Source: a virus
Strand: one strand, 5' to 3'
Virus record (IMG/VR): IMGVR_UViG_3300035112_000003
Location: 1-64,000 of that record
Length of the DNA: 64,000 nucleotides
A model generated the notes under the pieces. The model did no database searches. It worked only from the letters and a program-made list of their open reading frames with translations, and had not been told where the DNA came from. This document shows, in pieces, positions 16,933-60,925 of the stretch (its first letter is position 1; each line of letters starts with the position of its first letter). The position numbers were made by a program, and so were the translations under genes.

Positions 16933-19900
16933 TTAATTTTTTTGATGTGGATTAGTTCTTGTTACTCTTGTTGGTCTTTCTCTTGATACTGTTGATCTAG
17001 CAGGCTTATTGGATGCGCTTTCCCCTGATTTCATTAAGCTATAATCCTCTCCTATTCTAACCCCTGTACCACCTGACATGACACCTACAAATACCCCTTT
17101 TAAGATTTGCTCTATTTGAGGCTTTGACATTCCTCGTTGTTCCATTTGAACAGTTACATCTTTTATTGCTTCTGCCACAGGAATCGGCGTTTGTTGATTT
17201 AAAATATATTCCTTCCATGTTAATTGATGCCCAAATGGCCCCGGCTTATCAGAAGAAAACGGGAGAGTATTGCCTCCATAGTCATGATGGGTAGCAATAT
17301 CGGCGGCTGTACTAGCAAATGGTGATAGTTTACCTCGCAAATATTTACTAAATGAACTATACAATAAGTCTGTCCTAGTTTTACCTTTTAAAGACGTTTC
17401 GGATTCTACCGAAATGGCCACCAATTTGCTTAAAAATCCCAATGCCGAAGCCATCCCTCCCGTTAAATCTATCGTTCTGTCTCCGAATTTAAATTTAAGC
17501 CAATCAGAACTTTTGGGGTCAGTAAAATTCACACTCTGTTTTGATCCTGTTGCCATTAATAATCCCTGATTTGCAGCCAATGCCGCAAAATAAGTGGCTA
17601 TAGCCTCACCACTTCTTTTAGCTACAATTTTAGCCGCTGCCTTTTCTGCTGCCGTTGCATTCTTCCAATTAGTAAAGGTTGCGATTGCCTTCACCGGCTG
17701 GGTTATAAGGCGCGACCATCTGGATGCCTCTAGCCGGGGGGCAAAAAACGCTGTACCAATAGCTTCAGGAACTGGTATCTTACTAGTACCTGTTGCATGA
17801 TTTACGATAGTGGCTATTTCTTTCAATACTTCCGGATCGGCCTTTTCTACAGCAGAAAGCCTATTGTATTCATCCTTCGCCATCTCTAATCTCATTACTT
17901 TCAATGCATTAAACCCACGATCGCCAGCCGCTCCAAGCCTCCCTAGCATTTTATCAAAGGTCTGATAATCATCGAATTTTTCAGCGGGATCAACTGCAAG
18001 GCCGGCCCTCTTCCATTTTGCAAATTCCGGATCATTTACTAAATCCTGCATCGCCTTTTCGTATTGGGCAGCCTTCCCGAATGCAAAATTGAATTGTTTA
18101 AAGAATGAGGGCCAATATGATTTCCATGCTGTGGGCCTAAATATATTCATACCGGCATGCGTAATACCTCCAACTGTACCATGCCCAAATGTCTTCAATC
18201 TGAAAAATAGATGTGGGACAAACTTAAGCGCCTTTACCACCCTTGGAGTATTTGCAGCTTTCACCCATGCCTTTGCTTGTTGTATGGCTTGTCGCTGATG
18301 ATATTGCTGCGTGTATAATTCGTCGGAAATAACTTTCGTGCCCTTGGGTTGTGTTATGGCATTCCTAACTTGATCTGGGTTTAATCCCAAGTCCTTAGAT
18401 ACCCCATATACCATTTCATTAAAATCTTTCCCCTTATTGATATATTCTGTCTTTGCATAATCCCATATATCTCTAGCGTCTTCTGTTGTAAATTTGTTGT
18501 CCTTTTTATCAGCAAAGCGAGTTAATAAATCATTTTCGTTTTTGAAATATTTGTTATAATCATTTTCTACGTCACGTTGCTTATCTTCTGATAATGATTT
18601 ATACCAATCACTTTGTTTAATATGCGATAACCCATCAGATATAGCCTGCACAACTGTGCCGCCTGCCTCTACCGTTTTGGCCATTATCTCTAACGCACTA
18701 TCCCAAACTAATGACCCCGGCGTTGCGGCTTGGAAACTTCCCGGCTTTCTAGTTTTCCCTTCCCTTAGAAGATCAGCAAATTTATCAGCTTTTTCTTTTA
18801 TTGATTTCCCCGGTTCTTTTTCACCCGTTGACTTATCTATTGCTTCTGTAAGTTTCTTTTTCAGCCCTTCCACTTCTTTAGTCAATGACCCTACCTTATC
18901 TGCCAGTTCTTTAGCACGACCTTCTTGAGCTTTGGACATAGGCTGTTCATTCCGTTGCTCAAAGTATCTCCTTATCCCAGTAAAAGAACCAGTATCTATA
19001 TCTGTTACTCCTTGTTGTTCACGACCCATACCGCCCCATACTGTCTGCATGGGTTTCACTACCTCGTTATACCATTTGCTTTCGGCTGCTTTTGCCGCTT
19101 TATCCTCAGCACTTCCAGCCCCAAACTCATCAGCGGCTTTATTTGTTTCTCTTACAAGCCTATTATATTCTGCCCTTACTACGCTAATATCATCTACGCC
19201 TATTTTGCCATGATTTTTGAAATCACTTGCTACCTGATGTGGGTCTACGCCTTGTGCTATTAGTTCTTTACCCCTCTCAATGTATTGTTCTGGCTCTAAG
19301 ACTTCACCCCTAACCGGTGCAGATTCCCCGGTATCAAATGCCCTTTGTGAACGATATTCATGGGCAATACCAATATCCTCCCCAAATGGCAAATCCATGT
19401 TCCCCGGATATGGCGCTACCCCTTCTTTACCCGTATCTTTACCTTCTTCTTGGGCGCGTGTTCCGGCAGTGACTTCCCCTTGCTGGCTTGGTTCCATTCC
19501 TCCACGTTGACCCCCTTCTGCTCCAATTCCTTCTTGTGGATGTTGAAGAACGCCGCCTGTGCTTGGCTCTTGTATGGCATGAGTTAATTCTTTATTGTTT
19601 AAGAAAATATTCGTTGTTTCATCTGTCCATTTACCATCTGTTTTGGATAACGCGTCAAGCGCTCTCATTACCTTACTATGGCTTACTACATGAGTGTCTT
19701 CAGGCAGTGACTTAACATATTCATACGCTTTCTCCATTCTTGCCTTAAAGCTCTCAGGTGATTCAGAGCCTTCTGGCCTATACTTTCCTTCAAACCATTC
19801 TTTCTCTTTAAAGGTTCCTTCCGGCTTCCCTTCATCACTACCAATATTAGCCGTATTCAGTAATTCATTCCTTTCAATGGGCACTTCTTTGCCTGTGATC

Positions 19901-35302: not shown

Positions 35303-37744
35303 TTATTGTGGCTGCATTTGTTGTTCTTGCATTTCTTGTTCCTGTGGCTCCCCTTCCTGCTGCGCCTCTGGCCCAGGTTGTTGCTGTTGTTGAGATTGCG
35401 CCATTATATTTTGCATCATAGCTTGTGTCTCTTGCTGCAATGGCAACGTTATCCCCGGAATTGCATAGTTAATCACATTAGATAACCATGACGGCATTGT
35501 GCCGCCTTCAGTAGCCGCCTTAGACGCAAAAGCAAAGCCCCCCCGTACCAGTTCTATTTTTATTTGCTGTAAAGCCTTAAACTCTTCTAGCTCCTTATCT
35601 GCATCTAGTTTATCCTGCTGTAATTGTTTATCTGATTGGGCTTTTAATGCTGCTGCCTGCTGTTGAACTTGCGCGTTTTGTTGGCTTTGTTGCTGTGCAT
35701 TTTCTTGTTCGGCGCGAATCATGCGCTTCATTGAATTCCTGAAATACAAAGAAGCTAGCTTAGTATTTTCTTTGGCAATTCGTTTTAATTTAGCTGGGTC
35801 TAAATAATTGATCAATTGAGGGTTGGCGGCCAGTGCTTGGTTTACCGAATTAGTTAAATCTGCAATCTCAAATTGATCTGGCAGCAATTCAAACTTAGTA
35901 GAAAACTGCCGATCATTTACATCTTCCTCTTTTAGTAAGTGCCTGTAAGTTTTAGCGCCAAAACGAACTGAATTATTCAACAAACAGGCCACTTTCTTCG
36001 CCGTTTCTTCCATTATGTACTTATAGGCATCATACATGTAATCAGTAGCAAATGCCGCTGTTTGCTGTGACGCTTGCACATTCTCAGAAGTGACCCTTGG
36101 TTGAACTGCTTGTGTAATAAGGTTCGGGTCTTCCCCTAATTGATCTTTTAAAACACGGTATTGGAAGTCATATTGCGCGATAAGCCCTTGCATAGCTCCA
36201 ACAAATCCGGCGTTTTGCAATTCCTGAATAGGAACAGGTAATGGATTGCCTTCTGCATCCCTGCCCCGATAATACAATCTACCAGTTTGCTCGTATACTT
36301 TTTGAACATTAATTGGGCTTGTTCCATCGGCAGCCAATCCTAAATCAACTTCATTAATCGCATCTATATTAATAGCTGCACCGGGCGGTATCATGGTAGC
36401 TATAACTTGCTGCATCTTTAAGATGATAACAATCATAGCCTCAATTGGCTGTTCTATTTTTTCAGGTAATGCGATATTTCGCATATCCTGATTTTGATAC
36501 ATGTAAAGACTGATTGGGAATTCCACATCACCTGATTCTTTCGGGTCTTGTGGTCGTATCATATTATTATCCAATCCCCATTCCAGCATCTTTTGAGCAT
36601 ACCGAACGTAAACCCCTTTATATAAATTCCACTTGTCTTTCTTTACAAACTCCTGGTTGTCGCCAACACTATTCGGCGCTTGCTGCCTGCGCTCAATAAT
36701 AGTACTCTGGTTTTGCTTAGTAACCGTCATCAGGTACCCATCTTCATCCACCGACTTAATCCAGAAGTAGATGCACTCTACGTTCCATTCGTCGTAAGGT
36801 CGAATATAAGCCAGCAACCAATCATAATTCCATGTGAGCTTATCGAAGCGTTGATATTCCTGTGATGTTTGGGCAATTAAAAACAAGTCTTCCTCTGATA
36901 ATGTGCCACCAAACTCCTTCCCATACTTACGCCTTATCTCAGATATTTTAAGAGATTTGACAAAGCCACGCATGGCCGTATCTCTCATATCATCATATTC
37001 AGAATATGAGTATAAAGAATTTAATGGCTTCACCCATTCTACATGCACTACACCATATTCATCCATCCATACGTAAGTAGAAACCAACCCGCATTCTATA
37101 GAATCATGAAGTATCTTTTTCTTTAAAACATCGAAAAATCCCTGCGACTGAAGAATATCATTCGTACCTATTTCGTATTTTATCTCTTCTGGCAACCGCT
37201 GCCCAGCAATTGCCCATTCTTCCAGATCATCTTTATCTTCTGCTACAAATTGATCAGGGCTGATCATTGGTACTCCCGACTGCTGCTGAAGCTCTTCTAA
37301 CTGCTTACGATTATAAAGCACAAATTCAGCTTGCTCATATTGATCTTGTTTATCTTTAACAGATATTGGATCAACTGCCGTTACCTGCACTTTCTCTATC
37401 CGCTGCATCCACCTGCCTACTAACCCAGTAATAATCCGGTTAACCAGCATGGGAGCGCTGTACTTCAAATTTGCGTAGTTAACTTTCCCATTAAAGTTCA
37501 GAAGATCAGCAAATTTCGCATATATATTAATCTTTCCTGATGACCACAATATATTGGTTTTGAACCTATCGTTCCTAAGGAAACTATAACCATTACTAAC
37601 GCCTGCCGAATATTTCTGCTCTATATCCAGTGCTAATTGTTTCCCATATTTAGGGTCAAGTTTATCCTTGACATTCTTTGTGAGAAGAAAATCTTTATAT
37701 GATTGCCCGGAAATTCCTATGCTTTGTGACTGATTTTCAGACAT
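35303..37744 (-). CDS. Portal protein, crAss-like
   Basis: An 813-residue protein with a large alpha-helical core and a C-terminal Gln-rich tail (about residues 690-813). Segments such as YANLKYSAPMLVNRIITGLVGRW and GLVSTYVWMDEYGVVHVEWV fit the portal clip/wing regions of crAss-like phages. Order is TerL, portal, small beta proteins, scaffold, capsid. A promoter lies immediately upstream. The portal forms the DNA entry ring and motor docking site. Confidence 0.75.
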   Translation of the reverse strand: MSENQSQSIGISGQSYKDFLLTKNVKDKLDPKYGKQLALDIEQKYSAGVSNGYSFLRNDRFKTNILWSSGKINIYAKFADLLNFNGKVNYANLKYSAPMLVNRIITGLVGRWMQRIEKVQVTAVDPISVKDKQDQYEQAEFVLYNRKQLEELQQQSGVPMISPDQFVAEDKDDLEEWAIAGQRLPEEIKYEIGTNDILQSQGFFDVLKKKILHDSIECGLVSTYVWMDEYGVVHVEWVKPLNSLYSYSEYDDMRDTAMRGFVKSLKISEIRRKYGKEFGGTLSEEDLFLIAQTSQEYQRFDKLTWNYDWLLAYIRPYDEWNVECIYFWIKSVDEDGYLMTVTKQNQSTIIERRQQAPNSVGDNQEFVKKDKWNLYKGVYVRYAQKMLEWGLDNNMIRPQDPKESGDVEFPISLYMYQNQDMRNIALPEKIEQPIEAMIVIILKMQQVIATMIPPGAAINIDAINEVDLGLAADGTSPINVQKVYEQTGRLYYRGRDAEGNPLPVPIQELQNAGFVGAMQGLIAQYDFQYRVLKDQLGEDPNLITQAVQPRVTSENVQASQQTAAFATDYMYDAYKYIMEETAKKVACLLNNSVRFGAKTYRHLLKEEDVNDRQFSTKFELLPDQFEIADLTNSVNQALAANPQLINYLDPAKLKRIAKENTKLASLYFRNSMKRMIRAEQENAQQQSQQNAQVQQQAAALKAQSDKQLQQDKLDADKELEEFKALQQIKIELVRGGFAFASKAATEGGTMPSWLSNVINYAIPGITLPLQQETQAMMQNIMAQSQQQQQPGPEAQQEGEPQEQEMQEQQMQPQ

Positions 37745-37800: not shown

Positions 37801-39873
37801 CTAATTGACCGAAAAATTTTGATTATTTGTGTTAACATAACTGCGAACCAGCGGCTCAGAAGGCGGCTTTGGCTTCCGGATCGGCTCCATCAAACACACC
37901 AAAAGCATTAAAAATGATACCACTGTATCGTAAGCCGTACGATCGTACGGGTCAAAAACCTTAGCATTTTGCAATAACTCTTCAAAATCTATCAGTTCAC
38001 AATAGTTCTCAAAGTAGGCTATGCCACAATCCAGTTGTTTGGTCAAGCTAAATGGAGTAGTGGGGAACCCTTTGAACCGGTCTGCATTCTCCCGCTTAGT
38101 TGGATCAATGGTACTTAATGGATAAGTTCCTAAATATCCGACCTTCCCTCTATCCCTGAAATATGACAGATAATCATCGCTATTGTGTTCGTACCATATT
38201 TTGAACCCAAAATATTCTCCGGCCAGCATTACCTGTTCATGAAGCGTTTCTTTAACCGCTGGCCGCCCATATAGATGGCCAATAGCTTTACCTGTGTTAT
38301 GAGGATTTAGCATATCCGGCCTTAACCCAATCCATGCAGATGCTTTTGATCCATACTTTCTACCGCCCTGGCTATTGGAATATCCATCAACAGCTATAGC
38401 GCCTATTTCAACTCGATCTGGATACCTAAGTTTATTTTCATATTTAAACTTGTTTTCCTGACCTTTTTCAGGGAATGCAGTAATTGTCCAATGGAAATTC
38501 TTTTCGCTTTCCTGAATATCCCTCCATCTTACTACCTGATCTAAATCTCTATAGAAAATTATTTTACGCTTGTAAATTGGACTCTCTTCAAGTTCTTTAA
38601 GCCGCCTGTTTATATTGAAAGAATTGAATGCGCAATTAGTGTTGGCAGCTTCAAACATTTCGTCTACGGTACAGGGATTCATACGAATTTCTTCTTCCAA
38701 TAAATCTCCCGTTAATCCCTCTCTTCTTTTTACCATCACATATTGTCGCGCACCCATTTTAATATCTTCTTCAGTGAGTTCGGATACTACTACACCTGTG
38801 ATTGGGTCTTTCTTAACCCACTTATCTACTAGGTACTGGAATTGTTCATGGGTTGGCTCTCCAATAACCGACATTCCATGCCGATCAATAAATCCTTCAT
38901 ATCCATCATAAGCAGCAGAGAAATATGTAACAAACCTGTTTGGTGTTGGCCTATTAGGATATTTGAATTGATTGGCTCCATCCCATGATTTCTTAAATGC
39001 CGCGCCGCCGCCTTTTGTCATCTCGTTTACGGTGGATGGTGCCTCACAAAATCCTACACGCTTTGCGCCTTTAATCATAGTCTTACTGACTATTGAAATG
39101 AATTTAGCGAAATCAACTTCTGTCGGCCATTTACCTCCTTCATCTGCAAGGATTCTCGTCATCCTACCCCGATCGTAGGCATTTAATACGGGTGCCCTAT
39201 AATTTATTTTTGATTTCTGCCCACCATCTGTAGCCTCTCCATTCTTTAACCTAGCAGCAAAAACTAGTTCTGTTACACTATCTGCCCTGTTTAGCTGTCT
39301 GGGTTTTAAGAAAATTGGCAATTGATTGTAGCCATTGCGAACCATGTCAGTGAACGTATCTCTACTATCCACATTGGTTTTACTAACTAAGCCACAATTG
39401 CTATTAGTAAAAAATATACACTCGTAAACAAGATTTGATGTCGCCTGAGACGACGCCCCCTCACGCCTTTTTTTACCACGGAAAACACCTAAACACCATA
39501 GTACATTTTCCCAATGATTTAAAAACAAAAAATACCGACGATCCGTATCGCGGTATTCTGGGTAAATATCATCTTCAAGTTTCCACCAATTTAAATAAAA
39601 GTAATTTTTACCGGTTATGAAAGTAGGGGAACCATTATTGAAAAACCAATACCCTTCTCTGCACTTTATTACTTCTTCTCTGGCAAATTGCTCTTGTTCG
39701 GGTGTCAATAAAGCATTCCCATCATCATCATATTCTATCCTGTTAAAGAATGATGGCAATTCCCTGCGTTTCCATACTTGCGCCTGGTTCTCTTTCCCCC
39801 ATCCGGCCATTAACGTCTCCAACGGATTATCGGGAGTATACGTTAACGACCCATAGACATCTACATATAACAT
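37801..39873 (-). CDS. Large terminase subunit
   Basis: A 690-residue protein. The N-terminal WFFNNGSPTFITGKNYFYLNWW motif (76-97) is characteristic of crAss-like TerL proteins. The ATPase region has a variant P-loop, GKKRREGASS (133-142), and a Walker B strand TRILADEGGK (239-248, Asp-Glu at 244-245). The C-terminal nuclease starts around AIAVDGYSNSQGG. Packages DNA into the procapsid through the portal. Its ATG overlaps the stop of the previous gene by one base. Confidence 0.85.
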   Translation of the reverse strand: MLYVDVYGSLTYTPDNPLETLMAGWGKENQAQVWKRRELPSFFNRIEYDDDGNALLTPEQEQFAREEVIKCREGYWFFNNGSPTFITGKNYFYLNWWKLEDDIYPEYRDTDRRYFLFLNHWENVLWCLGVFRGKKRREGASSQATSNLVYECIFFTNSNCGLVSKTNVDSRDTFTDMVRNGYNQLPIFLKPRQLNRADSVTELVFAARLKNGEATDGGQKSKINYRAPVLNAYDRGRMTRILADEGGKWPTEVDFAKFISIVSKTMIKGAKRVGFCEAPSTVNEMTKGGGAAFKKSWDGANQFKYPNRPTPNRFVTYFSAAYDGYEGFIDRHGMSVIGEPTHEQFQYLVDKWVKKDPITGVVVSELTEEDIKMGARQYVMVKRREGLTGDLLEEEIRMNPCTVDEMFEAANTNCAFNSFNINRRLKELEESPIYKRKIIFYRDLDQVVRWRDIQESEKNFHWTITAFPEKGQENKFKYENKLRYPDRVEIGAIAVDGYSNSQGGRKYGSKASAWIGLRPDMLNPHNTGKAIGHLYGRPAVKETLHEQVMLAGEYFGFKIWYEHNSDDYLSYFRDRGKVGYLGTYPLSTIDPTKRENADRFKGFPTTPFSLTKQLDCGIAYFENYCELIDFEELLQNAKVFDPYDRTAYDTVVSFLMLLVCLMEPIRKPKPPSEPLVRSYVNTNNQNFSVN

Positions 39874-40211: not shown

Positions 40212-40454
40212 TTAATTTAATATTTGTTCAGCAGGAACTACTGGTAAATCTTCAGCGCTACAAGTGCATGGTCTTAAAACAAATGTGCTAACATATGAAA
40301 ATCCTTCTTCGGCTGTATCGTCTTCCACTGGAAAATCAACACATTCGGATTGTTCAAAGCAGACAGTGATATACGTTTCATCTCCATGAGGCATAACTAC
40401 TGTCATGTCATCTGGTAGATCGGCAATTAGTTCTTTTAATTCAGCTATTGACAT
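40212..40454 (-). CDS. Hypothetical acidic protein
   Basis: An 80-residue acidic protein with a CTC motif near the C-terminus. The N-terminal MSIAELKELIADLPDDMTVVM resembles small phage proteins of unknown function. It overlaps the upstream gene by 10 bases. Confidence 0.5.
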   Translation of the reverse strand: MSIAELKELIADLPDDMTVVMPHGDETYITVCFEQSECVDFPVEDDTAEEGFSYVSTFVLRPCTCSAEDLPVVPAEQILN

Positions 40455-41140
40455 ATATATTCTTTTAAAGGCTTAGCGTCTGTTTTTGACAACCCCACAA
40501 GTATTTGCCCATTATTGACTTTTTTAGTCAGCCCATGATCTATTGCGATTACTTCTGGCTCCCGGCTGGTTCGTTCGTCTCCATTTGGGCGGCACCTTAT
40601 TAATCGGCTTTCTTGCCCCGTGTTGGGTTCTCTAAATACAATTTCATAATCACATGCTTTTAGTGTTCTTACTACTTGGCCTGCGTATTCACCAGTTTGC
40701 ATATAGAGAGTATCCTTCAATAAAGTAGGTTCTATCCCATGAATTGGGCCGGGATAAGGGGCAAATACTCTCAATCCAAAATCAAACGTATTAGATGGCT
40801 GCCATTCTCCATCAGGCTCCTTCCATGCAAAGCAATCTTCTTCTGGAACTGAAAAGAATTTAATATCACTTGCTATTTCTTTACCGCTTAATTGGCCATG
40901 ATTTAAAACTTCAAATTCTGGCCTTGTACCATTGTGATGGAATAGCATTATAGCGCCTTTCGGAATGCCTTCCCCACTAACTACTGTACCTTGTATAGGT
41001 TGTGTTTCGCGACAATTAAAATTTTCGTACCGGCGCTCAATCCTAATGGTAACACCGTGAGAGAATGTATGGTGATTCTTTTCTTCTGTCCATACCTTAA
41101 TTAATATTCTGTTTTCTACATTTTTTAATTCTGTCTGCAT
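40445..41140 (-). CDS. Hypothetical packaging-region protein
   Basis: A 231-residue protein, beta-rich, with a possible GroES-like barrel feel (RILIKVWTEEK ... QGTVVSGEGIPKGAIMLFHHNGT; KKVNNGQILVGLS), but no confident match. It overlaps the upstream endonuclease by 44 bases, as expected if the endonuclease inserted near its start. Function unknown. Confidence 0.5.
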   Translation of the reverse strand: MQTELKNVENRILIKVWTEEKNHHTFSHGVTIRIERRYENFNCRETQPIQGTVVSGEGIPKGAIMLFHHNGTRPEFEVLNHGQLSGKEIASDIKFFSVPEEDCFAWKEPDGEWQPSNTFDFGLRVFAPYPGPIHGIEPTLLKDTLYMQTGEYAGQVVRTLKACDYEIVFREPNTGQESRLIRCRPNGDERTSREPEVIAIDHGLTKKVNNGQILVGLSKTDAKPLKEYICQ

Positions 41141-41738
41141 ATCTTTTTACTATTGGCGTGTTTAATGCTTGTTCCTTAGTCCAGCCGCGTTGGAGCCTAC
41201 ACTTTAATGTATTGTAATCCATTTTATATTGTCGCGCCCATTCTATGAAACATTTGCTTTCTCCATTATATTCCATTATAATATTGTTTCTTTTATTTCT
41301 ACTTTGTTGAGTCTTAGTAGCCCACCTAAAATTAGATGGGCCATAATTCCCATTGTTGTCAGGAAACCGATCTAACGTTAGGCTCTCACTATACCCAACC
41401 TTCACATCCTCATAAAAGTTTTTGAAATCATGCCAGCGATCAAACACAATTATCCCTCGTCCTCCATAATTTTTATATGATCGGCTATTTTTATTATAGC
41501 ATCTGGTCATCATACTTGACCAGATTTTATATAATCTAGTTTTAGTACGACCATCCTTTGCCAAAATACACCCGCATGATTTCGTATCTCCGTTTAATAA
41601 ATATTTCGCCATTTTCTCTGCTTCTATACCACAATCGCATTTAACCCACCAAAATGCCCTTTTATTCTCTGTCCGAGAATATTTAATCACTAATAGTTTC
41701 CCAAATCTTTTCCCAGTTAAGTTTATTTGCCTACCCAT
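41097..41738 (-). CDS. Homing endonuclease, zinc-binding AP2/HNH type
   Basis: A 213-residue protein from the ATG at 41738; the longer frame from 41798 would start inside a strong RNA hairpin. It shares the layout of the gene at 6997: N-terminal zinc cluster (WWVKCDCG ... TKSCGC), LYKIWSSMMTRCYN ... YKNYGGRGIIVFDRW, and a C-terminal IMEYNGESKCFIEWARQY DNA-binding segment. Free-standing, with its own leader. Confidence 0.75.
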   Translation of the reverse strand: MGRQINLTGKRFGKLLVIKYSRTENKRAFWWVKCDCGIEAEKMAKYLLNGDTKSCGCILAKDGRTKTRLYKIWSSMMTRCYNKNSRSYKNYGGRGIIVFDRWHDFKNFYEDVKVGYSESLTLDRFPDNNGNYGPSNFRWATKTQQSRNKRNNIIMEYNGESKCFIEWARQYKMDYNTLKCRLQRGWTKEQALNTPIVKRYADRIKKCRKQNIN

Positions 41739-41748
41739 ATAAAAAATT

Positions 41749-41857
41749 AACTCCAACAACAGATGGCCGTCACGTCCCTCAATGAAGAGAAAGTGCATCT
41801 GTGTCGGAGTTTATTTTTAATATTTTAATCAGGCTAACCATTAAAGAACGTCACGGC
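41749..41857 (-). promoter_or_regulatory. Structured RNA leader/terminator with interleaved stems
   Basis: On the minus strand, arm A (41811-41796) pairs with 41765-41749 to give a 16-bp stem with one bulge and one G-U pair, followed by TTAATTTTTT, a strong terminator. Arm B (41857-41848, GCCGTGACGT) pairs 9 of 10 with ACGTGACGGC (41775-41766), whose 3' arm lies in the loop of A. The stems interleave, so they exclude each other or make a pseudoknot. The region has no gene. Confidence 0.6.
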
Positions 41858-42606: not shown

Positions 42607-43416
42607 TTATTGGTTAAATAATAGCTCTGTGTAATATTCGAGCGCCCGTTGAGTAAGAAAATCATAGAACCCCGGCCCACTACCTATTACATTTGGTATG
42701 GAGTTGCAGACTTCCAAAACACGCGGTATTTTGAGCCCCTCTGCCACTTGAAAAATAGAACTCTGTGACCCCAGATAGACTTTGCAATTATAAAGAGCGG
42801 TTGCAATTTCTAAATAGTCAGCAGCTTCCAGCCTTGGAACATCCAACTTGTTTTGTTTACAGAATACCTCATGCTCGTTTGGCAATCCCACAAACATTAC
42901 TTTATCCCCGTATTGCTTCAGAAAATTATAGCTTACTAGCATGTTATTGTACCGCTCTGTACGGTTGATAAGGATTTTACCGATTACCCGCTGATCTATC
43001 TTGTAGGGAATATTCAGCCACTCTTTTGATAAGTCACATGCCATATCGGGCCAGATGTACATGGGCCAGCGATTGATTGCCCCCCCGGGTAAAGTTGTGG
43101 GATTTTCCCTTATCAAATCCATATTAAAATCAATTCGTTCTCCGCTCCATTCCCTGAAATCTTCAATATAATCTTGTGCTAATAGTAAAGGACGCAAAAC
43201 TGAAAATAGCGCGGGATTCATCATTACGGGCTCCCCTTCTTCATTAAAGATAGAATATTTTGCCCCAAGATAAGCACCCGCCACACCGTATGGCTGGTTA
43301 ACTCGTTGATATATAACCCATTTGCAGTCGTTATATTTTGAAACTTGCTTCAATCCAGGTAGAATCGAAAGAAGGTCGCCCGCGGGGAAAGTGTGAAGGA
43401 GAGTAACTATTTTCAT
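42607..43416 (-). CDS. Glycosyltransferase, GT-B/heptosyltransferase-like
   Basis: A 269-residue protein with the GT9-like layout: MKIVTLLHTFPAGDLLSILPGLKQVSKY at the N-terminus and a C-terminal nucleotide-sugar half with VMFVGLPNEHEVFC, the AADYLEIATALYNCKVYLGSQSSIFQVAEGL segment and IPRVLEV. It transfers a sugar from a nucleotide donor; acceptor unknown. The family assignment is by overall pattern. It shares the C-terminal motif type with the gene at 46741. Confidence 0.7.
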   Translation of the reverse strand: MKIVTLLHTFPAGDLLSILPGLKQVSKYNDCKWVIYQRVNQPYGVAGAYLGAKYSIFNEEGEPVMMNPALFSVLRPLLLAQDYIEDFREWSGERIDFNMDLIRENPTTLPGGAINRWPMYIWPDMACDLSKEWLNIPYKIDQRVIGKILINRTERYNNMLVSYNFLKQYGDKVMFVGLPNEHEVFCKQNKLDVPRLEAADYLEIATALYNCKVYLGSQSSIFQVAEGLKIPRVLEVCNSIPNVIGSGPGFYDFLTQRALEYYTELLFNQ

Positions 43417-43422
43417 TTTAGC

Positions 43423-43437
43423 AAAAACGTTGTAGCT
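43423..43437 (+). repeat. Copy of the operator-like motif
   Basis: The plus-strand sequence AACGTTGTAGCTTTA matches 15 bases of the palindromic site at 34621-34636 read on the minus strand. Here only half of the palindrome is present. It lies between the divergent genes at 42607 and 43500. Confidence 0.5.
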
Positions 43438-43499
43438 TTATGCCGTCCCCGGTCTTGCCCCCGGTTGGGCTCATTATTAACAATTTAAATATTAAAGTT

Positions 43500-43772
43500 A
43501 TGGCATTAACTGGTCGTGTAATTTTCAGTGCATATCGCAAGAATCAATATGATCTTAAAAACGCCGCTGGCGGCCCAGCAACCCAAGGGATTCCCATGAA
43601 TTTCCCTGGCGCACTTTGCGAATTAAGGCCCGCGCCGGCAAACCTTACTGCCAACGGAGTAACCATGCAATCAATTATTGAACTTTTGCCGTCTGGATTA
43701 CAACGTAATGGTCAATCTGATTTCTATTACAGCGCCGATACTGTTGCAACCCTGAACACAAACGGTAGCTAA
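43500..43772 (+). CDS. Lone plus-strand gene inside the minus-strand block
   Basis: A 90-residue protein from the ATG at 43500, which follows an A+T-rich leader; the longer form from 43440 is less likely. The sequence is MALTGRVIFSAYRKNQYDLK followed by a Gly/Ala/Pro-rich region and a Ser/Asn-rich end. It looks beta-rich and may be a virion component. It is the only plus-strand gene between 8 and 56 kb and has its own terminator. Function unknown. Confidence 0.6.
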   Translation: MALTGRVIFSAYRKNQYDLKNAAGGPATQGIPMNFPGALCELRPAPANLTANGVTMQSIIELLPSGLQRNGQSDFYYSADTVATLNTNGS

Positions 43773-43805
43773 TTCTTTTTTCACGGTTCAGATTCTCATG
43801 GGTTG

Positions 43806-43836
43806 GCCTCGATGCTTAATTGTATCGGGGCTTTTT
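43806..43836 (+). terminator. Terminator of the lone plus-strand gene
   Basis: An 8-bp stem, GCCTCGAT with ATCGGGGC (one T-G pair), followed by TTTTT. It lies 34 bases past the stop and its T-run touches the end of the converging gene. Confidence 0.8.
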
Positions 43837-44092
43837 ATTGCTCCTTTACTGATAAAACATATTTCTTCCCCCAATATTCATAAGTGGTTTCTACTTTCCC
43901 TTCCGCGGCTTTTACGATCATATTCATGAAATCAATATCGAATTCAGCTTTGATTTGTGCTCTCATGTTTTTTATTTCTGATTCTATATTCATAGCCACT
44001 GGCAATAAATGCTCCCCTATTGCCCTTACATTTGAATCAGATAGGCTTTTATATGCCTGTAATTTTTGAATCAATTTATCAACGTTATTCAT
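43835..44092 (-). CDS. Hypothetical helical protein
   Basis: An 85-residue helical protein (NNVDKLIQKLQAYKSLSDSNVRA ... IESEIKNMRAQIKAEFDIDF). Its stop lies in the terminator of the converging gene. No family recognised. Confidence 0.5.
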   Translation of the reverse strand: MNNVDKLIQKLQAYKSLSDSNVRAIGEHLLPVAMNIESEIKNMRAQIKAEFDIDFMNMIVKAAEGKVETTYEYWGKKYVLSVKEQ

Positions 44093-44104
44093 ATTAATTT
44101 ATTT

Positions 44105-44857
44105 TTATTCTCGTTGTTTAGCCCATTGTTGGATTAATGCAGGCAGCGGTTCTCCTATTGGAATAAGATCATTATCCGAAAACCACAGCTTCGGGTCAAA
44201 TGTTTCGCATTGGTTTAGCTTTTGATCATAGTCTGCGAATTGAAATACCTCTTTCTGCATGTGAATGATCTTAGCCCGATGCGCTTTCTTTTCCCGGACA
44301 AAACCCATGTGATACATTCGTATATGTTCCACGAACGCATCAGAAGCAAAACAATCCAGATTTTCCGCATCATCATATGCTCGATACATTGACTTTGCTA
44401 GTCGTACAACTTGGGGGCTACATGGCATCCTTTCCAAAGGAACATTTAGCTTTGTATAAGGGGTGTCCCATAAATTAAACCGACTGATTAAATACCCTTC
44501 AGCGCCGCCATTTATAGCCCTTCTTATCCATTCATATGATCTCTCATGCGTCAGTTCATCGGCTTGCTGGTAGTATATCCATTCCGTGTTTACTTGATCT
44601 ATTGCCTTATTTGTAAAATAAGATAGTTTCTCTTTTCCTTGTTGCGATTTCCACTCTTCATTATCACACAGGATAACCCTGGTTTGCCTACCCTGGAATG
44701 TCTTTATAAGCTCACTCGTTCCATCCGTTGACCCAGCATCAAGAACTATCACTTCATCACAAAATTCCTTCAATGAGGCCACAGATTCAGCTAAACAATA
44801 ATCTTGCGAAATAGCATTGTATGCGAATGTAACACCAGTTAATGCCTTACTCATCAT
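44105..44857 (-). CDS. Glycosyltransferase family 2
   Basis: A 250-residue protein with a GT-A fold: GVTFAYNAISQDYCLAESVASL, then DEVIVLDAGSTDGTSELI (the acceptor/donor region) and an EWIYYQQADE segment for the DxD-like metal site. It uses a nucleotide sugar. Overlaps the upstream gene by 11 bases. Part of the glycan island. Confidence 0.85.
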   Translation of the reverse strand: MMSKALTGVTFAYNAISQDYCLAESVASLKEFCDEVIVLDAGSTDGTSELIKTFQGRQTRVILCDNEEWKSQQGKEKLSYFTNKAIDQVNTEWIYYQQADELTHERSYEWIRRAINGGAEGYLISRFNLWDTPYTKLNVPLERMPCSPQVVRLAKSMYRAYDDAENLDCFASDAFVEHIRMYHMGFVREKKAHRAKIIHMQKEVFQFADYDQKLNQCETFDPKLWFSDNDLIPIGEPLPALIQQWAKQRE

Positions 44858-45095
44858 CTTCCTCCTTTTTATCGAAGCCTAATAATTTAATCAATGCTAT
44901 TCGTTGTTCTTGCCTACAACATGATTTAGCAATTTCAAGCAATAGTTTTTGATAGCCTTCATCTGTCGGATATGGATTAAGACTTGTTTCAACCTTGATA
45001 AGTCCTTCCAGATAGTTATAATACCTGTTTTGCCGTTCGCATTCCCATACATCAGAAATAGGCATATTCATTCTATAGGCTGGCCCTATTATCAT
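44847..45095 (-). CDS. Small helical protein in the glycan island
   Basis: An 82-residue helical protein (NRYYNYLEGLIKVETSLN ... LLLEIAKSCCRQEQRIALIKLLGFDKKEEDDE). It overlaps the glycosyltransferase gene, which implies coupled expression. No family recognised. Confidence 0.5.
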   Translation of the reverse strand: MIIGPAYRMNMPISDVWECERQNRYYNYLEGLIKVETSLNPYPTDEGYQKLLLEIAKSCCRQEQRIALIKLLGFDKKEEDDE

Positions 45096-45098
45096 ATA

Positions 45099-45761
45099 TT
45101 ATTTCTTTTTAAGTAAAGCGACGTAAAAACCTCGCCAATACATATCATTTAAATGCTGATCTTCGGTATATGGTTCTGGGTTTAGAAGCTCTTCATGAAA
45201 CAATATCTCGCATCCACTATCAATAAGTCCATCTATTGTTCCGCGCTTTACATCTCCATACTGCCAATCATCAACGCAAACGATAAATTCATTAGCCATT
45301 GAGGGCAGAAAATGCGTCATGGCTTTACGCTGGGCCTCATACCCATGATCTGCGTCAAAGCAATACAAATCCACTTCATCGGCAAAGTTAGGCGGCAGGT
45401 CAAATGTTTCGGATACTTCCCCCAGCAACACCGTCTCTGTTCCATCAATACACTTCATGGCATTTTGGATAAATTGCTCTTCGACATTTTCGCCCGTTAT
45501 TTTGTCAGAAGCAAAACTGTCACCCCAATAAGCTATTTCAATATTTGGATTATTTCTTAACACAGAACAGAATATGCCGCCTTTATGGGTTCCATGCTCC
45601 ATGTAACGCATTGATAATGAGCCTAAATTATTCATTAGATGGCGAAGTTTGATCGAAGAAAGTGCCGGTACATCCCATGCTACTTGATCCATTTTAGATT
45701 GATGGTTCTTTGCCTTTTCAATGGCATCTTTAATTGCTTCTATTTTTTCTTCAGTTGTCAT
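45099..45761 (-). CDS. Class I SAM methyltransferase-like protein
   Basis: A 220-residue protein. It has a LSMRYMEHGTHKGGIFCSVL segment (motif I region; GTHKGG in place of GxGxG), DEVDLYCFDADHGYEAQRKAMTHF (motif near D-A-D-H) and EFIVCVDDWQYG (end strand). This matches Methyltransf_24-type enzymes found near sugar pathways. Paired with the next gene; ATGA overlap at 45758-45761. Confidence 0.7.
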   Translation of the reverse strand: MTTEEKIEAIKDAIEKAKNHQSKMDQVAWDVPALSSIKLRHLMNNLGSLSMRYMEHGTHKGGIFCSVLRNNPNIEIAYWGDSFASDKITGENVEEQFIQNAMKCIDGTETVLLGEVSETFDLPPNFADEVDLYCFDADHGYEAQRKAMTHFLPSMANEFIVCVDDWQYGDVKRGTIDGLIDSGCEILFHEELLNPEPYTEDQHLNDMYWRGFYVALLKKK

Positions 45762-46381
45762 TGATAATTTATTTTATATAAACGGAGATTGTTCATGTCT
45801 TTTACTAGTTCTAGTTCTGGGAAATGCGTAAGGGCCTTTTTAGTATCCCCATATCTCTCATAAAAATCATCGTAAAGGATATAGGGGATTTTCATTTTTA
45901 TGCATAGTTCAGTATCATCAATAATGCTTTTTTCGTCGTGAGCGCCGTCAATAAATGCGAGATCGAAGAATCGGTGCATAGGATATGAATTAGCTGTATA
46001 GTCGTTGACATCATCTCTCCACTGAAATTCAAATCTATCTTGGTATGTACGTCTTAAGTATTCTGCACCTAGCAGTGTTTCATCCTTTTGGCTAATATCA
46101 CAACTCAATACATACCCATCAAATAAATTTAGCCACATGGAAACAGAATGTCCCATATTAAACCCAATCTCTAATATACACTCCGGGTTTACTATCTCAA
46201 TAGCTTCCCTGAAATGCCTTAATATGTGTGGGCCGCTATGGTATGGGATTGGTACGCCAAATTTATCCAACCCATCACCATTCTTTCCTGCCCTGGTTGG
46301 AAGCCCTTCAGTTATTTTATTATAGAAGGCCCAATCTTCTTCTGAGGCATACAGTAGTTCTTCATCTGTTAGTTCTGTCAT
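45758..46381 (-). CDS. Class I SAM methyltransferase-like protein
   Basis: A 207-residue protein: ECILEIGFNMGHSVSMWL (motif I with IGFNMGHS), CDISQKDETL (motif II), DLAFIDGAHDEKSIIDDTEL (metal-type IDGAHDE loop) and PYILYDDFYERYG. The IDGAHD loop is shared by cephalosporin-hydroxylase and Methyltransf_24-type enzymes that act on sugars. Possible O-methylation of a glycan; substrate unknown. Confidence 0.75.
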   Translation of the reverse strand: MTELTDEELLYASEEDWAFYNKITEGLPTRAGKNGDGLDKFGVPIPYHSGPHILRHFREAIEIVNPECILEIGFNMGHSVSMWLNLFDGYVLSCDISQKDETLLGAEYLRRTYQDRFEFQWRDDVNDYTANSYPMHRFFDLAFIDGAHDEKSIIDDTELCIKMKIPYILYDDFYERYGDTKKALTHFPELELVKDMNNLRLYKINYQ

Positions 46382-46390
46382 ATTAACAAT

Positions 46391-46744
46391 TTATTTAGTC
46401 GAATTTACAGGAGTTACTTTTGGATAACATCCACGAATGCCATAATAGATGCTTTCAAAAAACTTAACCGGCAATCCCGACCAAAGTTCGGGGATGCGAA
46501 CAAACCCACATCCGGCATTATATTGAATCCATATTCCATGATCAATTGGAACGCCTTCACTATTAACTTCACTAAGGATTAGTACAAACATATTCCGATC
46601 GAATTCCTTTTCTCGGAAATGGAGGTCTTCATCGTTCATATACGGCATATCATATATGTCATATGACTGTTCTTCATTGTATTTTTCAAACCCATGAGAT
46701 AACAGATATTCTTCATCAACATATTTTGTAGCATCCTCTGTCAT
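46391..46744 (-). CDS. Hypothetical protein in the glycan island
   Basis: A 117-residue acidic protein with Tyr/Glu/Asp-rich N-terminus (SYDIYDMPYMNDEDLHFREKEFDRN) and a Gly-rich second half. Overlaps the next gene by four bases. No family recognised. Confidence 0.5.
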   Translation of the reverse strand: MTEDATKYVDEEYLLSHGFEKYNEEQSYDIYDMPYMNDEDLHFREKEFDRNMFVLILSEVNSEGVPIDHGIWIQYNAGCGFVRIPELWSGLPVKFFESIYYGIRGCYPKVTPVNSTK

Positions 46745-48168
46745 AACAATTCATTTATAGCGTCAAGAAGATCAGAAGTTTTAAACTGAACACATGGGGG
46801 ATTTATTTTGTCGTCTATGCATTCTTGCCCATCCACGGTTATAGATTCATGCCAACAATACTTTAAGGAACATAAATTATGCCCGGGCTTATGGTTGGTT
46901 ATTACCCTAATGTTTTTTTGATCCGGCCAGATATAATCGGGATTGACATTGCCATGAAATACTATTAGTTTACGCCCTAACGCTACTGCAATATTCGCAG
47001 GGCCACTGTCTACAGAAATTAAGCATTCAGCGCCAGCCAACATATACATCAATAGTGGTTCTGCTAATGTATTTATCTTGATGGCCCCCGTCTCTTCGCT
47101 CTCGCCTTTCCCTATTTGGAATACAGTGTACCCTTTTGCTATTAGATTTATCACAATATACTTCCAGTCAATACCGTAAATGTTTCGACCCTCTTGCGCT
47201 CTCTTATCGATATGCAAACACACATATTTATTAGGGAACAATGTAGTTGATTTATCTACTCCTACATTCAATCTGGGATTGCGAATTACCCGCTCGCTTT
47301 CTGGCACTTCACAGAAATCATAGTAGCTTTTAAGGTGCAATTGCTTTGGGTTCGATTCATACGACATTTCGAGATTGTAAACTTTAGCCGTAGCTAGTAC
47401 TCTCGGGTCAATTTGTCTAGGGAATAACACAGGGAAATAGTGATTGTAGAATAATGTTTCAAATTGCGGTAAAGTATCCAAAACAACCCGGTAACCTTTC
47501 TTGTGAAAATACTCCATGACCGGTTCGCACTGTATGCAGTCTCCCATTGCAGCGGGGCGGCGTATCACAACCATTGGCCTATACGGCTCATGAAACCAAC
47601 CGTGGAAGCCAAAAGTTCTGCCAACCGGGGTTCTTAACTCAAAGGAGAATTGTTCGCATATTTCATCAGGAGCCCATTTAAAATCATAATTCTTTTCTAA
47701 GTATCTCCTATATACACGTGACACCGCCACATCTTCTGGCGCAGTTGCATTTATATGGTCATCAGTTGCTACCGTCTTCATTAACCGTAAGGAACGCCAG
47801 CTAAACCCTCCATTACCGTTTGCGAGGCCGTCATTTTCAATCCACAACGCGCCCGCCCAATCATAATCATACAGCCTTGCATCAAACATATCCCCGTTCA
47901 AAACCCACGAATCATGCTGAGTAACTAGGACATAATTGGTTGTTATAGGTAGATAAGCATGTTTTAATATAAATTCACTGTATTCATCTTTTGATTTTAT
48001 TGGCGGTATTTGAACAATACTTATGCCATCCAATTTCAGATCAACATTCGTATACAGTATCACTTTGTCAAACTCACATTGTGCCATGCTTTTTCTCAAT
48101 GAAGCAATTGCGGCCCCCGGATTTAAAGTATCAATAGCGATTAGCGTACAATCCTTTATTCGTCTCAT
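46741..48168 (-). CDS. DUF5672-GT9 fusion glycosyltransferase
   Basis: A 475-residue protein. The N-terminal part (1 to about 195) has the DUF5672 pattern: VLVTQHDSWVLNGDMFD, YDWAGALW, GNGGFSWRSLRLM, PEDVAVSRVY, FGFHGWFHEP. The C-terminal part (about 200-475) is GT9-like: VVIRRPAAMGDCIQCEPVMEYF, YVCLHIDKRAQEG, and the donor-binding MLAGAECLISVDSGPANIAVALGRKLIVFHG. Two transferase modules in one chain suggest sequential sugar additions. It shares a four-base overlap with each neighbour. Confidence 0.8.
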   Translation of the reverse strand: MRRIKDCTLIAIDTLNPGAAIASLRKSMAQCEFDKVILYTNVDLKLDGISIVQIPPIKSKDEYSEFILKHAYLPITTNYVLVTQHDSWVLNGDMFDARLYDYDWAGALWIENDGLANGNGGFSWRSLRLMKTVATDDHINATAPEDVAVSRVYRRYLEKNYDFKWAPDEICEQFSFELRTPVGRTFGFHGWFHEPYRPMVVIRRPAAMGDCIQCEPVMEYFHKKGYRVVLDTLPQFETLFYNHYFPVLFPRQIDPRVLATAKVYNLEMSYESNPKQLHLKSYYDFCEVPESERVIRNPRLNVGVDKSTTLFPNKYVCLHIDKRAQEGRNIYGIDWKYIVINLIAKGYTVFQIGKGESEETGAIKINTLAEPLLMYMLAGAECLISVDSGPANIAVALGRKLIVFHGNVNPDYIWPDQKNIRVITNHKPGHNLCSLKYCWHESITVDGQECIDDKINPPCVQFKTSDLLDAINELL

Positions 48169-48377
48169 TCAGTCGGTAGTTTTATTCCTTGGTTAGCTAA
48201 AAGTTTGTCTTTAATTTCTTCGGATAATTGGTCGAAACGTAGGCGTTCATACAAGCCATCCCCTTTACTTTTCAAAAAGTAGGGGAAGGAATAATAGGTA
48301 TCCCCGTTATCAGATACTATAGTTTGAGAGAAATGCCATAGGGTAGATTCCTGATCAGGGGTTAGTAACATTTCCAT
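48165..48377 (-). CDS. Hypothetical protein
   Basis: A 70-residue protein (LTPDQESTLWHFSQTIVSDNGDTYYSFPYFLKSKGDG) of mixed structure. It precedes the fusion glycosyltransferase and overlaps it by four bases. No family recognised. Confidence 0.5.
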   Translation of the reverse strand: MEMLLTPDQESTLWHFSQTIVSDNGDTYYSFPYFLKSKGDGLYERLRFDQLSEEIKDKLLANQGIKLPTE

Positions 48378-49503: not shown

Positions 49504-49840
49504 GTTGTTGTATGTTTAATTCGTCAAAGATAAATGGGAAACATAATTGGTTAGGGTCTTCAGGGATAGGTGCTTTGGGATTATCTGGGTCATCAGGATC
49601 ACCATCATTACCCCAATCCCATTTTACCCATGCAGTACAAGTAGGGCTACCATTTGCATCATACGTCCATTCTTCTGGGTATTCTTTATCTTTTACATCA
49701 TGGATCATTGACCTACACAATATCATGCATTGCTTTTTGTTATCTGGATCGGGATGTTGATTAATGCACCTATCACAAAAGTGATCTGTAAATGCCATTC
49801 CTTCTGTCCCGTTCGAGGGCCGGTATTTTTTATTATTCAT
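49469..49840 (-). CDS. Cys-rich acidic protein
   Basis: A 123-residue protein with a Cys/His cluster (FCDRCINQHPDPDNKKQCMILC), a possible zinc or iron site, and an Asp/Pro-rich middle (DGDPDDPDNPKAPIPEDPN). It overlaps the next gene by four bases (ATGA-type). No family recognised. Confidence 0.5.
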   Translation of the reverse strand: MNNKKYRPSNGTEGMAFTDHFCDRCINQHPDPDNKKQCMILCRSMIHDVKDKEYPEEWTYDANGSPTCTAWVKWDWGNDGDPDDPDNPKAPIPEDPNQLCFPFIFDELNIQQHGREYTTTSNR

Positions 49841-50172
49841 GAGTTAGCTAATTCAAGTAAAACATCTGCGTGGCATGGTTGACCCTCTTTACACCAGCAA
49901 GCCAAATTTTTGCCTTTTAATTCAGACAAATCAGCCGTCATAATCAACCCTTTGCCAAATATAAATGCTGGATTCAACTTTATAAGAACTAGGTTTTTGT
50001 AGCAATTAATAGCTTCCTGAACAGTATTTATTTTAAAAGGAGTGCCAAAATGGTTTTTAACCTCATCGCCTACTTTAAATGGATTCCCCCATTTAGTGGG
50101 CCTACCAACATATACAGTATTAGGCGGCATCACCCATCCTTTTGTTCTCTTTCGTTGTATTCGTATCGGCAT
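49837..50172 (-). CDS. DUF4326 protein
   Basis: A 111-residue protein with the full DUF4326 signature: RKRTKGWVMPPNTVYVGRPTKWGNPF and LKGKNLACWCKEGQPCHADVLLELAN. The family is common in phages and of unproven biochemical role. It overlaps the upstream gene by 53 bases. Confidence 0.8.
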   Translation of the reverse strand: MPIRIQRKRTKGWVMPPNTVYVGRPTKWGNPFKVGDEVKNHFGTPFKINTVQEAINCYKNLVLIKLNPAFIFGKGLIMTADLSELKGKNLACWCKEGQPCHADVLLELANS

Positions 50173-60322: not shown

Positions 60323-60925
60323 TTATTTAATATAACTCCAGCTACGCCCACTAATTACATTCCATATAGTTCTTTTTTTTAATCTTAATAACTCGGAAAT
60401 TTTATGCGGCGTGGTGCCGGAATAGTATAACTCTCTGATTTTAATCACGTCATCGTGAGTGAGTTTTATAACACTATGCCTTCTTTTTATAAATATATCA
60501 ATAACATTGTCCTTTTGTGTTCCTAAGAAAAGATGATCTGGATTACAACATGGGGGATTATCACATTTATGAAGAACATTATAGCCACCTATATCGCCTT
60601 TGTAATATTGATATGAATATCGATGAGTGCGCCAGGTTTTATTATCTATGGCAAACGTCCCATATCCATATCCCAATCTAATGCCTTGCCACTCCCAACA
60701 ACCATCATCATTAATCTTTATATTTTTTAAAAATAATGAATGGGTATTTCTTTCCTTGCGTCCCCTCCTTATATCAACTCCATTCATTTCCAATATCTTT
60801 TTTATTGTTTTTTTAGTTGACTTATATTTGCTGGCTATTTCGGCAAGGGAATTACCGTTATTATATAAATCTACTATTTTCGGGTGTTTATTAAGTTCAA
60901 CTATTAATGTCATTTTCCGTTTCAT
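60323..60925 (-). CDS. HNH homing endonuclease with N-terminal HTH
   Basis: A 200-residue protein. The N-terminal HTH (HPKIVDLYNNGNSLAEIASKYKSTKKTIKKILEMNGV) is followed by an HNH_3 nuclease (HRYSYQYYKGDIGGYNVLHKCDNPPCCNPDHLFLGTQKDN) and a C-terminal HTH (THDDVIKIRELYYSGTTPHKISELLRLKKRTIWNVI). The HNH His and Asn residues are visible. It lies alone between converging operons, as expected for a mobile endonuclease. Confidence 0.85.
   Translation of the reverse strand: MKRKMTLIVELNKHPKIVDLYNNGNSLAEIASKYKSTKKTIKKILEMNGVDIRRGRKERNTHSLFLKNIKINDDGCWEWQGIRLGYGYGTFAIDNKTWRTHRYSYQYYKGDIGGYNVLHKCDNPPCCNPDHLFLGTQKDNVIDIFIKRRHSVIKLTHDDVIKIRELYYSGTTPHKISELLRLKKRTIWNVISGRSWSYIK

Follow-up and report, generated by a model that had tools for sequence, protein, structure and literature searches.

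A conserved glycosyltransferase and methyltransferase island beside the packaging genes of uncultured Bacteroidota-type podoviruses and its possible role in virion protein glycosylation

Introduction

The IMG/VR virus record IMGVR_UViG_3300035112_000003 carries an island of glycosyltransferase (GT) and methyltransferase genes at positions 42607-48168 of the window, the whole stretch of 64,000 nucleotides analyzed here. What would these enzymes modify? The initial annotation suggested a virion protein or the host surface, and DNA is a further conceivable target. We addressed this question by analyzing the gene content, predicted folds, conservation, and genomic linkage of the island.

Results

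Gene content and organization of the island

All the ORFs named in the initial annotation were found on the - strand with ATG starts (Table 1). Their coupled order was evident from junctions that were short or overlapping (e.g., 46741/46744, 45758/45761, and 44847/44857), and Pfam and PHROG profiles placed the GT2, the DUF5672-GT9 fusion, and the two Methyltransf_24-type proteins where they had been reported. The same strand continues after the island with the genes for the terminase large subunit (TerL) and the portal protein and with structural genes. The original gene list was incomplete, as it omitted a conserved + strand gene inside the island encoding a 90-aa protein. The small - strand ORFs that had been regarded as partner genes do exist; those of 85, 82, and 117 aa had no homologues among the relatives searched, and they were rejected as conserved partners.

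Table 1. Features of the island and its surroundings (positions in the window)
Feature	Position	Strand	Evidence
Portal protein	35303..37744	-	tblastn hits on portal proteins annotated in ctfjg026, Panino, phi38:1
Terminase large subunit (TerL)	37801..39873	-	phrog_6681 3.2e-71
GroES-like co-chaperonin, downstream anchor of island	40445..41140	-	phrog_13932 1.2e-4
GT9-fold glycosyltransferase, 269 aa	42607..43416	-	AlphaFold and Foldseek; no Pfam/PHROG match
Divergent intergenic region; G+C-rich hairpin 43448-43469 in leader of 90-aa gene	43417..43499	.	Conserved among close relatives
90-aa protein, virion-module domain; lead glycan-acceptor candidate	43500..43772	+	Conservation, linkage, fusions
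Intrinsic terminator of 90-aa gene	43805..43842	+	11-pair stem, T tract; top terminator of scan
85-aa ORF	43835..44092	-	No homologue in relatives searched
GT2 glycosyltransferase, soluble	44105..44857	-	PF00535 1.6e-7
82-aa ORF	44847..45095	-	No homologue in relatives searched
Methyltransferase MTa, Methyltransf_24 type	45099..45761	-	PF13578 4.7e-5, phrog_1458 4.9e-20
Methyltransferase MTb, Methyltransf_24	45758..46381	-	PF13578 9.1e-7
117-aa ORF	46391..46744	-	No homologue in relatives searched
DUF5672 + GT9 (heptosyltransferase) fusion	46741..48168	-	PF18922 5.2e-15, PF01075 (Glyco_transf_9) 2.3e-7
70-aa ORF, upstream edge of island	48165..48377	-	Conserved in L002, L004, L016, L104-L106

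Predicted folds and conserved residues of the glycosyltransferases

The 269-aa protein is encoded by the first gene of the unit leading into the GroES-like, TerL, and portal genes. Profile searches with this protein yielded no Pfam or PHROG match, and 2 of 15 members of its family matched PF01075, weakly (best E value, 0.1). A PDB sequence search with the family profile gave no credible match, and a profile-profile comparison with the DUF5672-GT9 family gave nothing useful. AlphaFold predicted the structure with a pLDDT of 33 when supplied with 4 sequences and with a pLDDT of 92.6 and a pTM of 0.92 when supplied with a 39-sequence alignment. A Foldseek search of the PDB with the latter model returned only GT9 enzymes at ranks 1-30 (3tov, WaaC, TibC, and WaaF), with a best E value of 2.4e-7 and a TMq of 0.63 for WaaF, and a GT-B heptosyltransferase-type fold is thus present in the predicted model. 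The earlier label "GT9-like" is supported by this fold, with sequence profiles silent; because the sequence profile test failed, we refer to the protein as GT9-fold and not as a GT9 member. G13-D14, E181, S219, and E235 were invariant in 39/39 aligned sequences of the family, and its alignment contained no invariant cysteines. The aspartate of G13-D14 probably corresponds to that of WaaC and TibC and is a candidate catalytic residue.

The other two GTs were recognized by sequence profiles. The C-terminal half of the DUF5672-GT9 protein passed the curated cut-off of PF01075 (30.9 bits vs 22), and a phmmer search of the PDB with this protein gave weak hits on WaaF and WaaC. G209 and D210 were invariant in its family, and a DSG motif (387-389) was present in 14 of 15 members. 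The GT2 passed the PF00535 cut-off (31.8 bits vs 23.3), and its residues D45, T47, D100, and E101 were invariant in all 16 aligned sequences, with D45 and D100-E101 belonging to acidic nucleotide-sugar motifs. A hydrophobic-segment scan revealed no membrane segment in the GT2 or in any other island protein.

Methyltransferases and the exchangeable slot

MTb exceeded the curated cut-off of PF13578 (30.2 vs 26.3 bits), and MTa fell just under it (24.6 vs 26.3 bits), with the phrog_1458 match given in Table 1. MTa occurs in L002, L004, L016, L018, and L142, and MTb, among close relatives, only in L016/L105/L106. The slot between the DUF5672-GT9 and GT2 genes varies, being occupied by methyltransferases or by a GT17 depending on the relative. 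Because methyltransferases are swapped for a GT17 in this slot, the methyl caps proposed for the glycan are plausible. Two relatives, L019 and L022, encode a PfkB kinase (E values, 3.4e-16 and 4.1e-17), and L019 further encodes a heptose-1-P adenylyltransferase-like protein (phrog_7878, 1.6e-38) together with a cupin.

DNA glycosylation occurs in some phages, and the presence of methyltransferases would fit a DNA hypermodification system in which the GTs glycosylate modified bases for evasion of restriction. Neither a base hydroxymethylase or pyrimidine-modification gene nor a DNA glucosyltransferase was recognized among the ORFs scanned, which included some of the small ORFs of a possibly incomplete record. 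Moreover, the fold indicates heptosyltransferases, and the methyltransferases fall with Methyltransf_24. We therefore regard this explanation as very improbable.

The 90-aa protein is related to fibre-like virion proteins

The 90-aa protein showed 73-91% identity across close relatives, and its gene had a third-position excess, with a dN of 0.09 and a dS of 1.1 in the comparison with L004. Because of this excess, its own terminator, and the fusion of its product to larger proteins, the possibility that it is a shadow ORF was rejected. Judged by eye, L002 and L004 keep the terminator stem through paired changes. At the divergent region of other loci, hairpins that were different but analogous were noticed by eye. 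We do not claim a Bacteroidetes-type promoter in this region: the count was 8/35 against a shuffle mean of 0.8, with several of the loci being near-duplicates.

The 90-aa domain forms the N-terminus of fibre-like repeat proteins of 982 and 618 aa that lie amid the island genes of L098/L099, and the 982-aa protein of L098 matched phrog_1645, a virion structural protein, at 1.3e-20. The domain was also found within the structural gene cluster of L023/L025, where it constitutes the C-terminal repeats of a 332-aa protein of L023. N-X-S/T sequons in the 90-aa protein were rejected as glycan sites, since they were not conserved across the family; the family showed neither a conserved sequon nor a conserved acceptor motif.

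In 36 of the 52 loci that carry the GT9-fold gene, the 90-aa gene was its neighbour. Among relatives selected by terminase and having 7 kb or more of upstream sequence, 10 carried both the GT and the 90-aa gene, 19 carried neither, one (L033) carried the 90-aa gene only, and none carried the GT only (Fisher test, 3.7e-7, uncorrected for relatedness).

Conservation and linkage of the island

The island is not confined to this phage. The family of the 269-aa protein was found in 52 loci, which also contained genes for the GroES-like protein (39), the portal (38), TerL (37), the 90-aa protein (36), DUF5672-GT9 (34), and GT2 (27). The carriers are a group of uncultured podovirus-type viruses of Bacteroidota-type bacteria. 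Searches of phage records with the island DNA and with the 269-aa and 90-aa proteins gave no match.

In 13 loci, a GT ORF abutted or overlapped the gene for the GroES-like protein that precedes TerL, with junctions of -56 to +12 bp; this suggests that the GT and packaging genes share one transcript. The position beside packaging and virion genes noted in the initial annotation was retained across dozens of contigs, and the island adjoins and co-occurs with a gene for a domain that also heads fibre-like proteins; the link to virion genes is thus much better supported than in the initial annotation. In elemo and phi38:1, annotated tail-fibre or tail genes lie at the position upstream of GroES-TerL. 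This linkage of the GTs to structural genes is positional evidence only.

The island may instead be a laterally acquired cell-surface cassette with no specific partner, carried as passing cargo. In line with this, the slot genes are swapped, the small ORFs are peculiar to this phage, and the island was absent from the related isolates examined. Against it, the 90-aa gene has been retained jointly with all three GT genes over wide divergence (38-47% identity for the GTs) with key residues invariant, and the linkage is kept in dozens of contigs. We judge the cargo explanation improbable.

Discussion

The analysis leaves two principal candidates for the target of the island, a virion surface protein and the host surface. 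We consider glycosylation of a virion surface protein the best explanation and a reasonably probable one. The fold of the 269-aa protein bears on both: TibC, which heptosylates proteins, is among its best matches and may argue for a protein target, whereas WaaC and WaaF, which act on LPS, are equally close in the predicted model. The GTs and methyltransferases could accordingly alter the LPS core or another surface glycan of the host during infection, blocking superinfection or keeping progeny from sticking to debris. The GTs and rfaE of pelagimyophages have been interpreted in this way (PMC7029224), and in Synechococcus phage RN05-S a large nucleotide-sugar/GT cluster contains the distant DUF5672 relative. 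On the other hand, membrane GTs, flippases, and lipid-carrier enzymes are absent from the island; GtrB (phrog_841) was matched at 0.025 only, and the test for a Gtr O-antigen conversion cluster (GtrA flippase, membrane GtrB, and polytopic Gtr) failed, as no hydrophobic segment was found. In addition, what steadily accompanies the island is a domain of virion type along with packaging genes, and not early genes. Modification of the host surface is thus rather unlikely, though the strongest of the alternatives.

Under the virion-protein explanation, the island would serve Bacteroidota-type podoviruses as a module for glycosylating proteins in the cytosol and would be expressed with the late genes. 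The two enzymes of GT9 (heptosyltransferase) fold and the GT2 would assemble a short glycan on a surface protein of the virion, and the lineage-specific enzyme of the slot before GT2 would finish it, namely the two methyltransferases here and another methyltransferase or GT17 in relatives. Donor sugars would be supplied by the host, with two relatives probably encoding sugar-activation steps themselves. The lead candidate for the acceptor is the 90-aa protein, whose domain is common to fibre-like virion proteins. Its gene occurs once without GTs, in L033, and several GT9-fold loci have no 90-aa gene nearby, which argues against this explanation. The glycan might serve in shielding, adhesion, or particle stability.

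More tentatively, the island may represent a phage system for cytosolic protein heptosylation, in which TibC/WaaC-fold enzymes, accompanied in some relatives by the phage's own heptose-activation genes, modify a dedicated small surface or fibre protein of the virion whose gene lies divergently alongside theirs, with a cap (methyltransferase or GT17) exchanged between lineages. If the virion-protein explanation is correct, widespread uncultured phages of Bacteroidota build their own lineage-specific virion glycans, and a single conserved locus joins the enzyme set, a candidate acceptor, and late expression. Virion glycosylation would then extend beyond mycobacteriophages, with phage protein heptosylation as a possible form, and could bear on escape from surface traps, sticking to mucus or host glycans, and stability. 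A ready test system would be at hand in the 90-aa acceptor candidate, the three GTs, and a single exchangeable cap enzyme.

Comparison with known systems

TibC transfers heptose from ADP-D,D-heptose onto protein, and the TibC/Aah autotransporter heptosyltransferases resemble the 269-aa protein in their GT9-like fold, with an Asp proposed as the catalytic base (PMC4358343). The identity between TibC and the 269-aa protein in structural alignment is about 15%, and the TibC type forms a dodecamer and has a C-terminal iron-binding cysteine motif, whereas no set of cysteines is conserved in the 269-aa protein. WaaC and WaaF share with it the best-matching fold and a G-D motif near the N-terminus; their DSG motif is kept by the DUF5672-GT9 protein but not by the 269-aa protein, and, unlike WaaC and WaaF, the phage genes adjoin packaging genes.

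Pelagimyophages carry GTs and rfaE in host-recognition cassettes, and many of these genes lie among those for tail fibres (PMC7029224). The likeness lies in the GTs and sugar-nucleotide genes; those cassettes are hypervariable and GT8-rich, whereas here the gene order is conserved and the relatives are of podovirus type. The sugar clusters of cyanophages (Synechococcus phage RN05-S; PHM2_101 of P-HM2) contain DUF5672-like and Methyltransf_24-like relatives with less than 31% identity to the island proteins and a different gene order.

Phage virion glycosylation itself is already known from mycobacteriophages. The view that such a pathway is little described holds in part: glycosylated capsids of mycobacteriophages Che8 and Rita are cited in PMC11256854, and the pelagimyophage GTs and rfaE are on record (PMC7029224). 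The Che8 and Rita systems resemble the island in having phage-encoded GTs, thought there to decorate capsid proteins. The present putative system differs in the host phylum and in its predicted enzymes, three GTs of GT9, GT2, and DUF5672 type with methyltransferases, and it is distinguished by its coupling to GroES-TerL and its pairing with a small fibre-related protein.

Positions of the features discussed, in the window unless a related contig is named
Feature	Position	Strand	Match
Homing-type endonuclease (HNH/GIY-YIG)	6997-7707		
Homing-type endonuclease (HNH/GIY-YIG)	15289-15960		
1775-aa protein, structural region	16933-22260		Histidine phosphatase domain PF00300, residues 724-868, 3.8e-20
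Portal	35303-37744	-	
TerL	37801-39873	-	phrog_6681, 3.2e-71
GroES-like	40445-41140	-	
Homing-type endonuclease (HNH/GIY-YIG)	41097-41798		
GT9-fold protein, 269 aa	42607-43416	-	
Leader hairpin of the 90-aa gene	43448-43469		
90-aa gene	43500-43772	+	
GT2	44105-44857	-	
Methyltransferase 1	45099-45761	-	phrog_1458
Methyltransferase 2	45758-46381	-	Methyltransf_24
DUF5672-GT9	46741-48168	-	
DUF4326 protein, close to replication genes	49837-50172		5.3e-26
Homing-type endonuclease (HNH/GIY-YIG)	60323-60925		
Homing-type endonucleases of relatives	L002:9153-10001; L016:5327-5869		
TerL of a relative	L006:3059-5134		
PHM2_101, cyanophage P-HM2	L011:6864-8603		

Identity of the island enzymes

The island ORFs were present where the initial annotation had placed them, and its GT2, DUF5672 plus GT9, and Methyltransf_24 calls were upheld by Pfam; methyltransferase 1 scored slightly under the curated Methyltransf_24 cut-off and is supported by its phrog match. 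The sequence-family search assigned no family to the 269-aa protein. Its structure model, built from 39 gathered relatives, had a pLDDT of 92.6, and PDB matches 1-30 were all GT9 enzymes, including Veillonella GT9, WaaC, TibC, and WaaF, so the label "GT9-like" was supported by predicted fold without a sequence family. Its viral matches included proteins named glycosyltransferase, RfaF heptosyltransferase, and Aah/TibC. G13-D14 was invariant (39/39 sequences), and key residues were still fixed in distant members of the glycosyltransferase families with approximately 38-47% identity to the window. The candidate catalytic base of TibC is an Asp conserved across the TibC family (PMC4358343), to which we infer D14 to be equivalent.

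Conservation and gene order

A search with the 269-aa family across viral contigs, a few of them near-duplicates, yielded 52 loci. With some contigs ending early, the neighbors included GroES-like, portal, and TerL genes in at least 39, 38, and 37 loci, and the 90-aa, DUF5672-GT9, and GT2 genes in at least 36, 34, and 27, respectively; the proposed proximity of the island to packaging and virion genes thus held. The usual order was the 90-aa gene on the opposite strand, GT9-fold, DUF5672-GT9, a variable slot, GT2, GroES, TerL, and portal. In the window and its closest relatives, DUF5672-GT9, the methyltransferases, and GT2 lay across the 90-aa gene from the usual side. In 13 loci, the end of the last glycosyltransferase ORF ranged from a 56-bp overlap with GroES to a 12-bp gap ahead of it.

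In five loci (L131, L153, L110, L112, and L151), the GT9-fold gene occurred in rearranged phages, which had portal ahead of TerL or carried the packaging genes on the opposite strand, a pattern suggesting that the module moves between phage lineages. Homing-type endonuclease genes lay within and around the late region at locations differing between relatives.

The slot contained Methyltransf_24 genes in the window and L016, GT17 in L096 (3.6e-26), and methyltransferases in L019, L022, L035, and, by a weak match, L018. L019 and L022 additionally carried a PfkB-type kinase. L019 also had a cupin, together with a cytidylyltransferase-like protein that matched phrog_7878, annotated as bifunctional heptose kinase/adenylyltransferase. 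Functional viral NDP-heptose enzymes have been reported (PMC11461863). These putative sugar-activation genes fit GT9 enzymes, without proving heptose as the sugar.

The 90-aa gene and the possible acceptor

The 90-aa gene, missed by the initial annotation, differed among close relatives mostly at third codon positions (10, 6, and 42 changes between the window and contig L004; dN 0.09, dS 1.1). It has its own terminator, whose stem changes were paired among relatives, and a leader hairpin that perhaps stabilizes a strongly expressed mRNA. Hairpins of different sequence apparently occupy the same place in other relatives.

The gene was divergent from the GT9-fold gene in 33 of 36 loci and convergent in two; in L116, the one other locus, the copy closest to the GT9-fold gene was the fiber protein on the same strand, and the small copies were also divergent. 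In L098 and L099, the 90-aa domain formed the N-terminus of repeat-rich 982- and 618-aa proteins among island genes, the former matching a virion structural protein (phrog_1645, 1.3e-20). L023 has a 332-aa protein that ends in two copies of the domain and is encoded in the structural cluster following TerL and portal. Of the relatives selected by terminase that had 7 kb or more of upstream sequence, 10 had glycosyltransferases and the 90-aa gene, 19 neither, one the 90-aa gene alone, and none glycosyltransferases alone (Fisher 3.7e-7, a value that ignores kinship and so overstates the case).

The most economical account is that soluble glycosyltransferases would glycosylate a virion surface protein in the cytosol, an exchangeable enzyme completing the glycan. 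Modification of the host surface is the main, less probable alternative: the GT9 fold cannot distinguish LPS from protein acceptors, and comparable pelagimyophage genes were interpreted as acting in O-chain modification (PMC7029224). DNA modification by the island enzymes had no positive support.

Phage identity and known systems

The window covers bases 1-64000 of a 64,798-base record. Its TerL was approximately 27% identical to that of Flavobacterium elemo phages, and its portal matched Cellulophaga phi38:1 (Pervagoviridae), Maribacter phage Panino, and uncultured podovirus ctfjg026. In MAG contigs titled Bacteroidetes or Sphingobacteriia, island-gene homologues adjoin the TerL and portal of a phage, so the virus in the window probably infects a member of Bacteroidota. 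The TerL of L006 was only 36% identical to that of the window, while the portal was 99% identical, indicating that TerL was swapped independently of its neighbors.

Comparison with four related phage regions (elemo, ctfjg026, Panino, and phi38:1) gave no match to the island families; in two of these isolates, elemo and phi38:1, tail, fiber, or lysis genes occupied the corresponding position upstream of GroES-TerL. The literature searched, which was of partial coverage, described no heptosyltransferase-fold module that is coupled to late genes and combines a fiber-domain partner with an exchangeable cap. Virion glycosylation is known for mycobacteriophages (PMC11256854, citing Freeman 2023). 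The C-terminal Methyltransf_24 domain of cyanophage PHM2_101 resembles methyltransferase 1; PHM2_101, encoded among consecutive large and hypothetical proteins ahead of the neck gene, is possibly another virion-linked methyltransferase.
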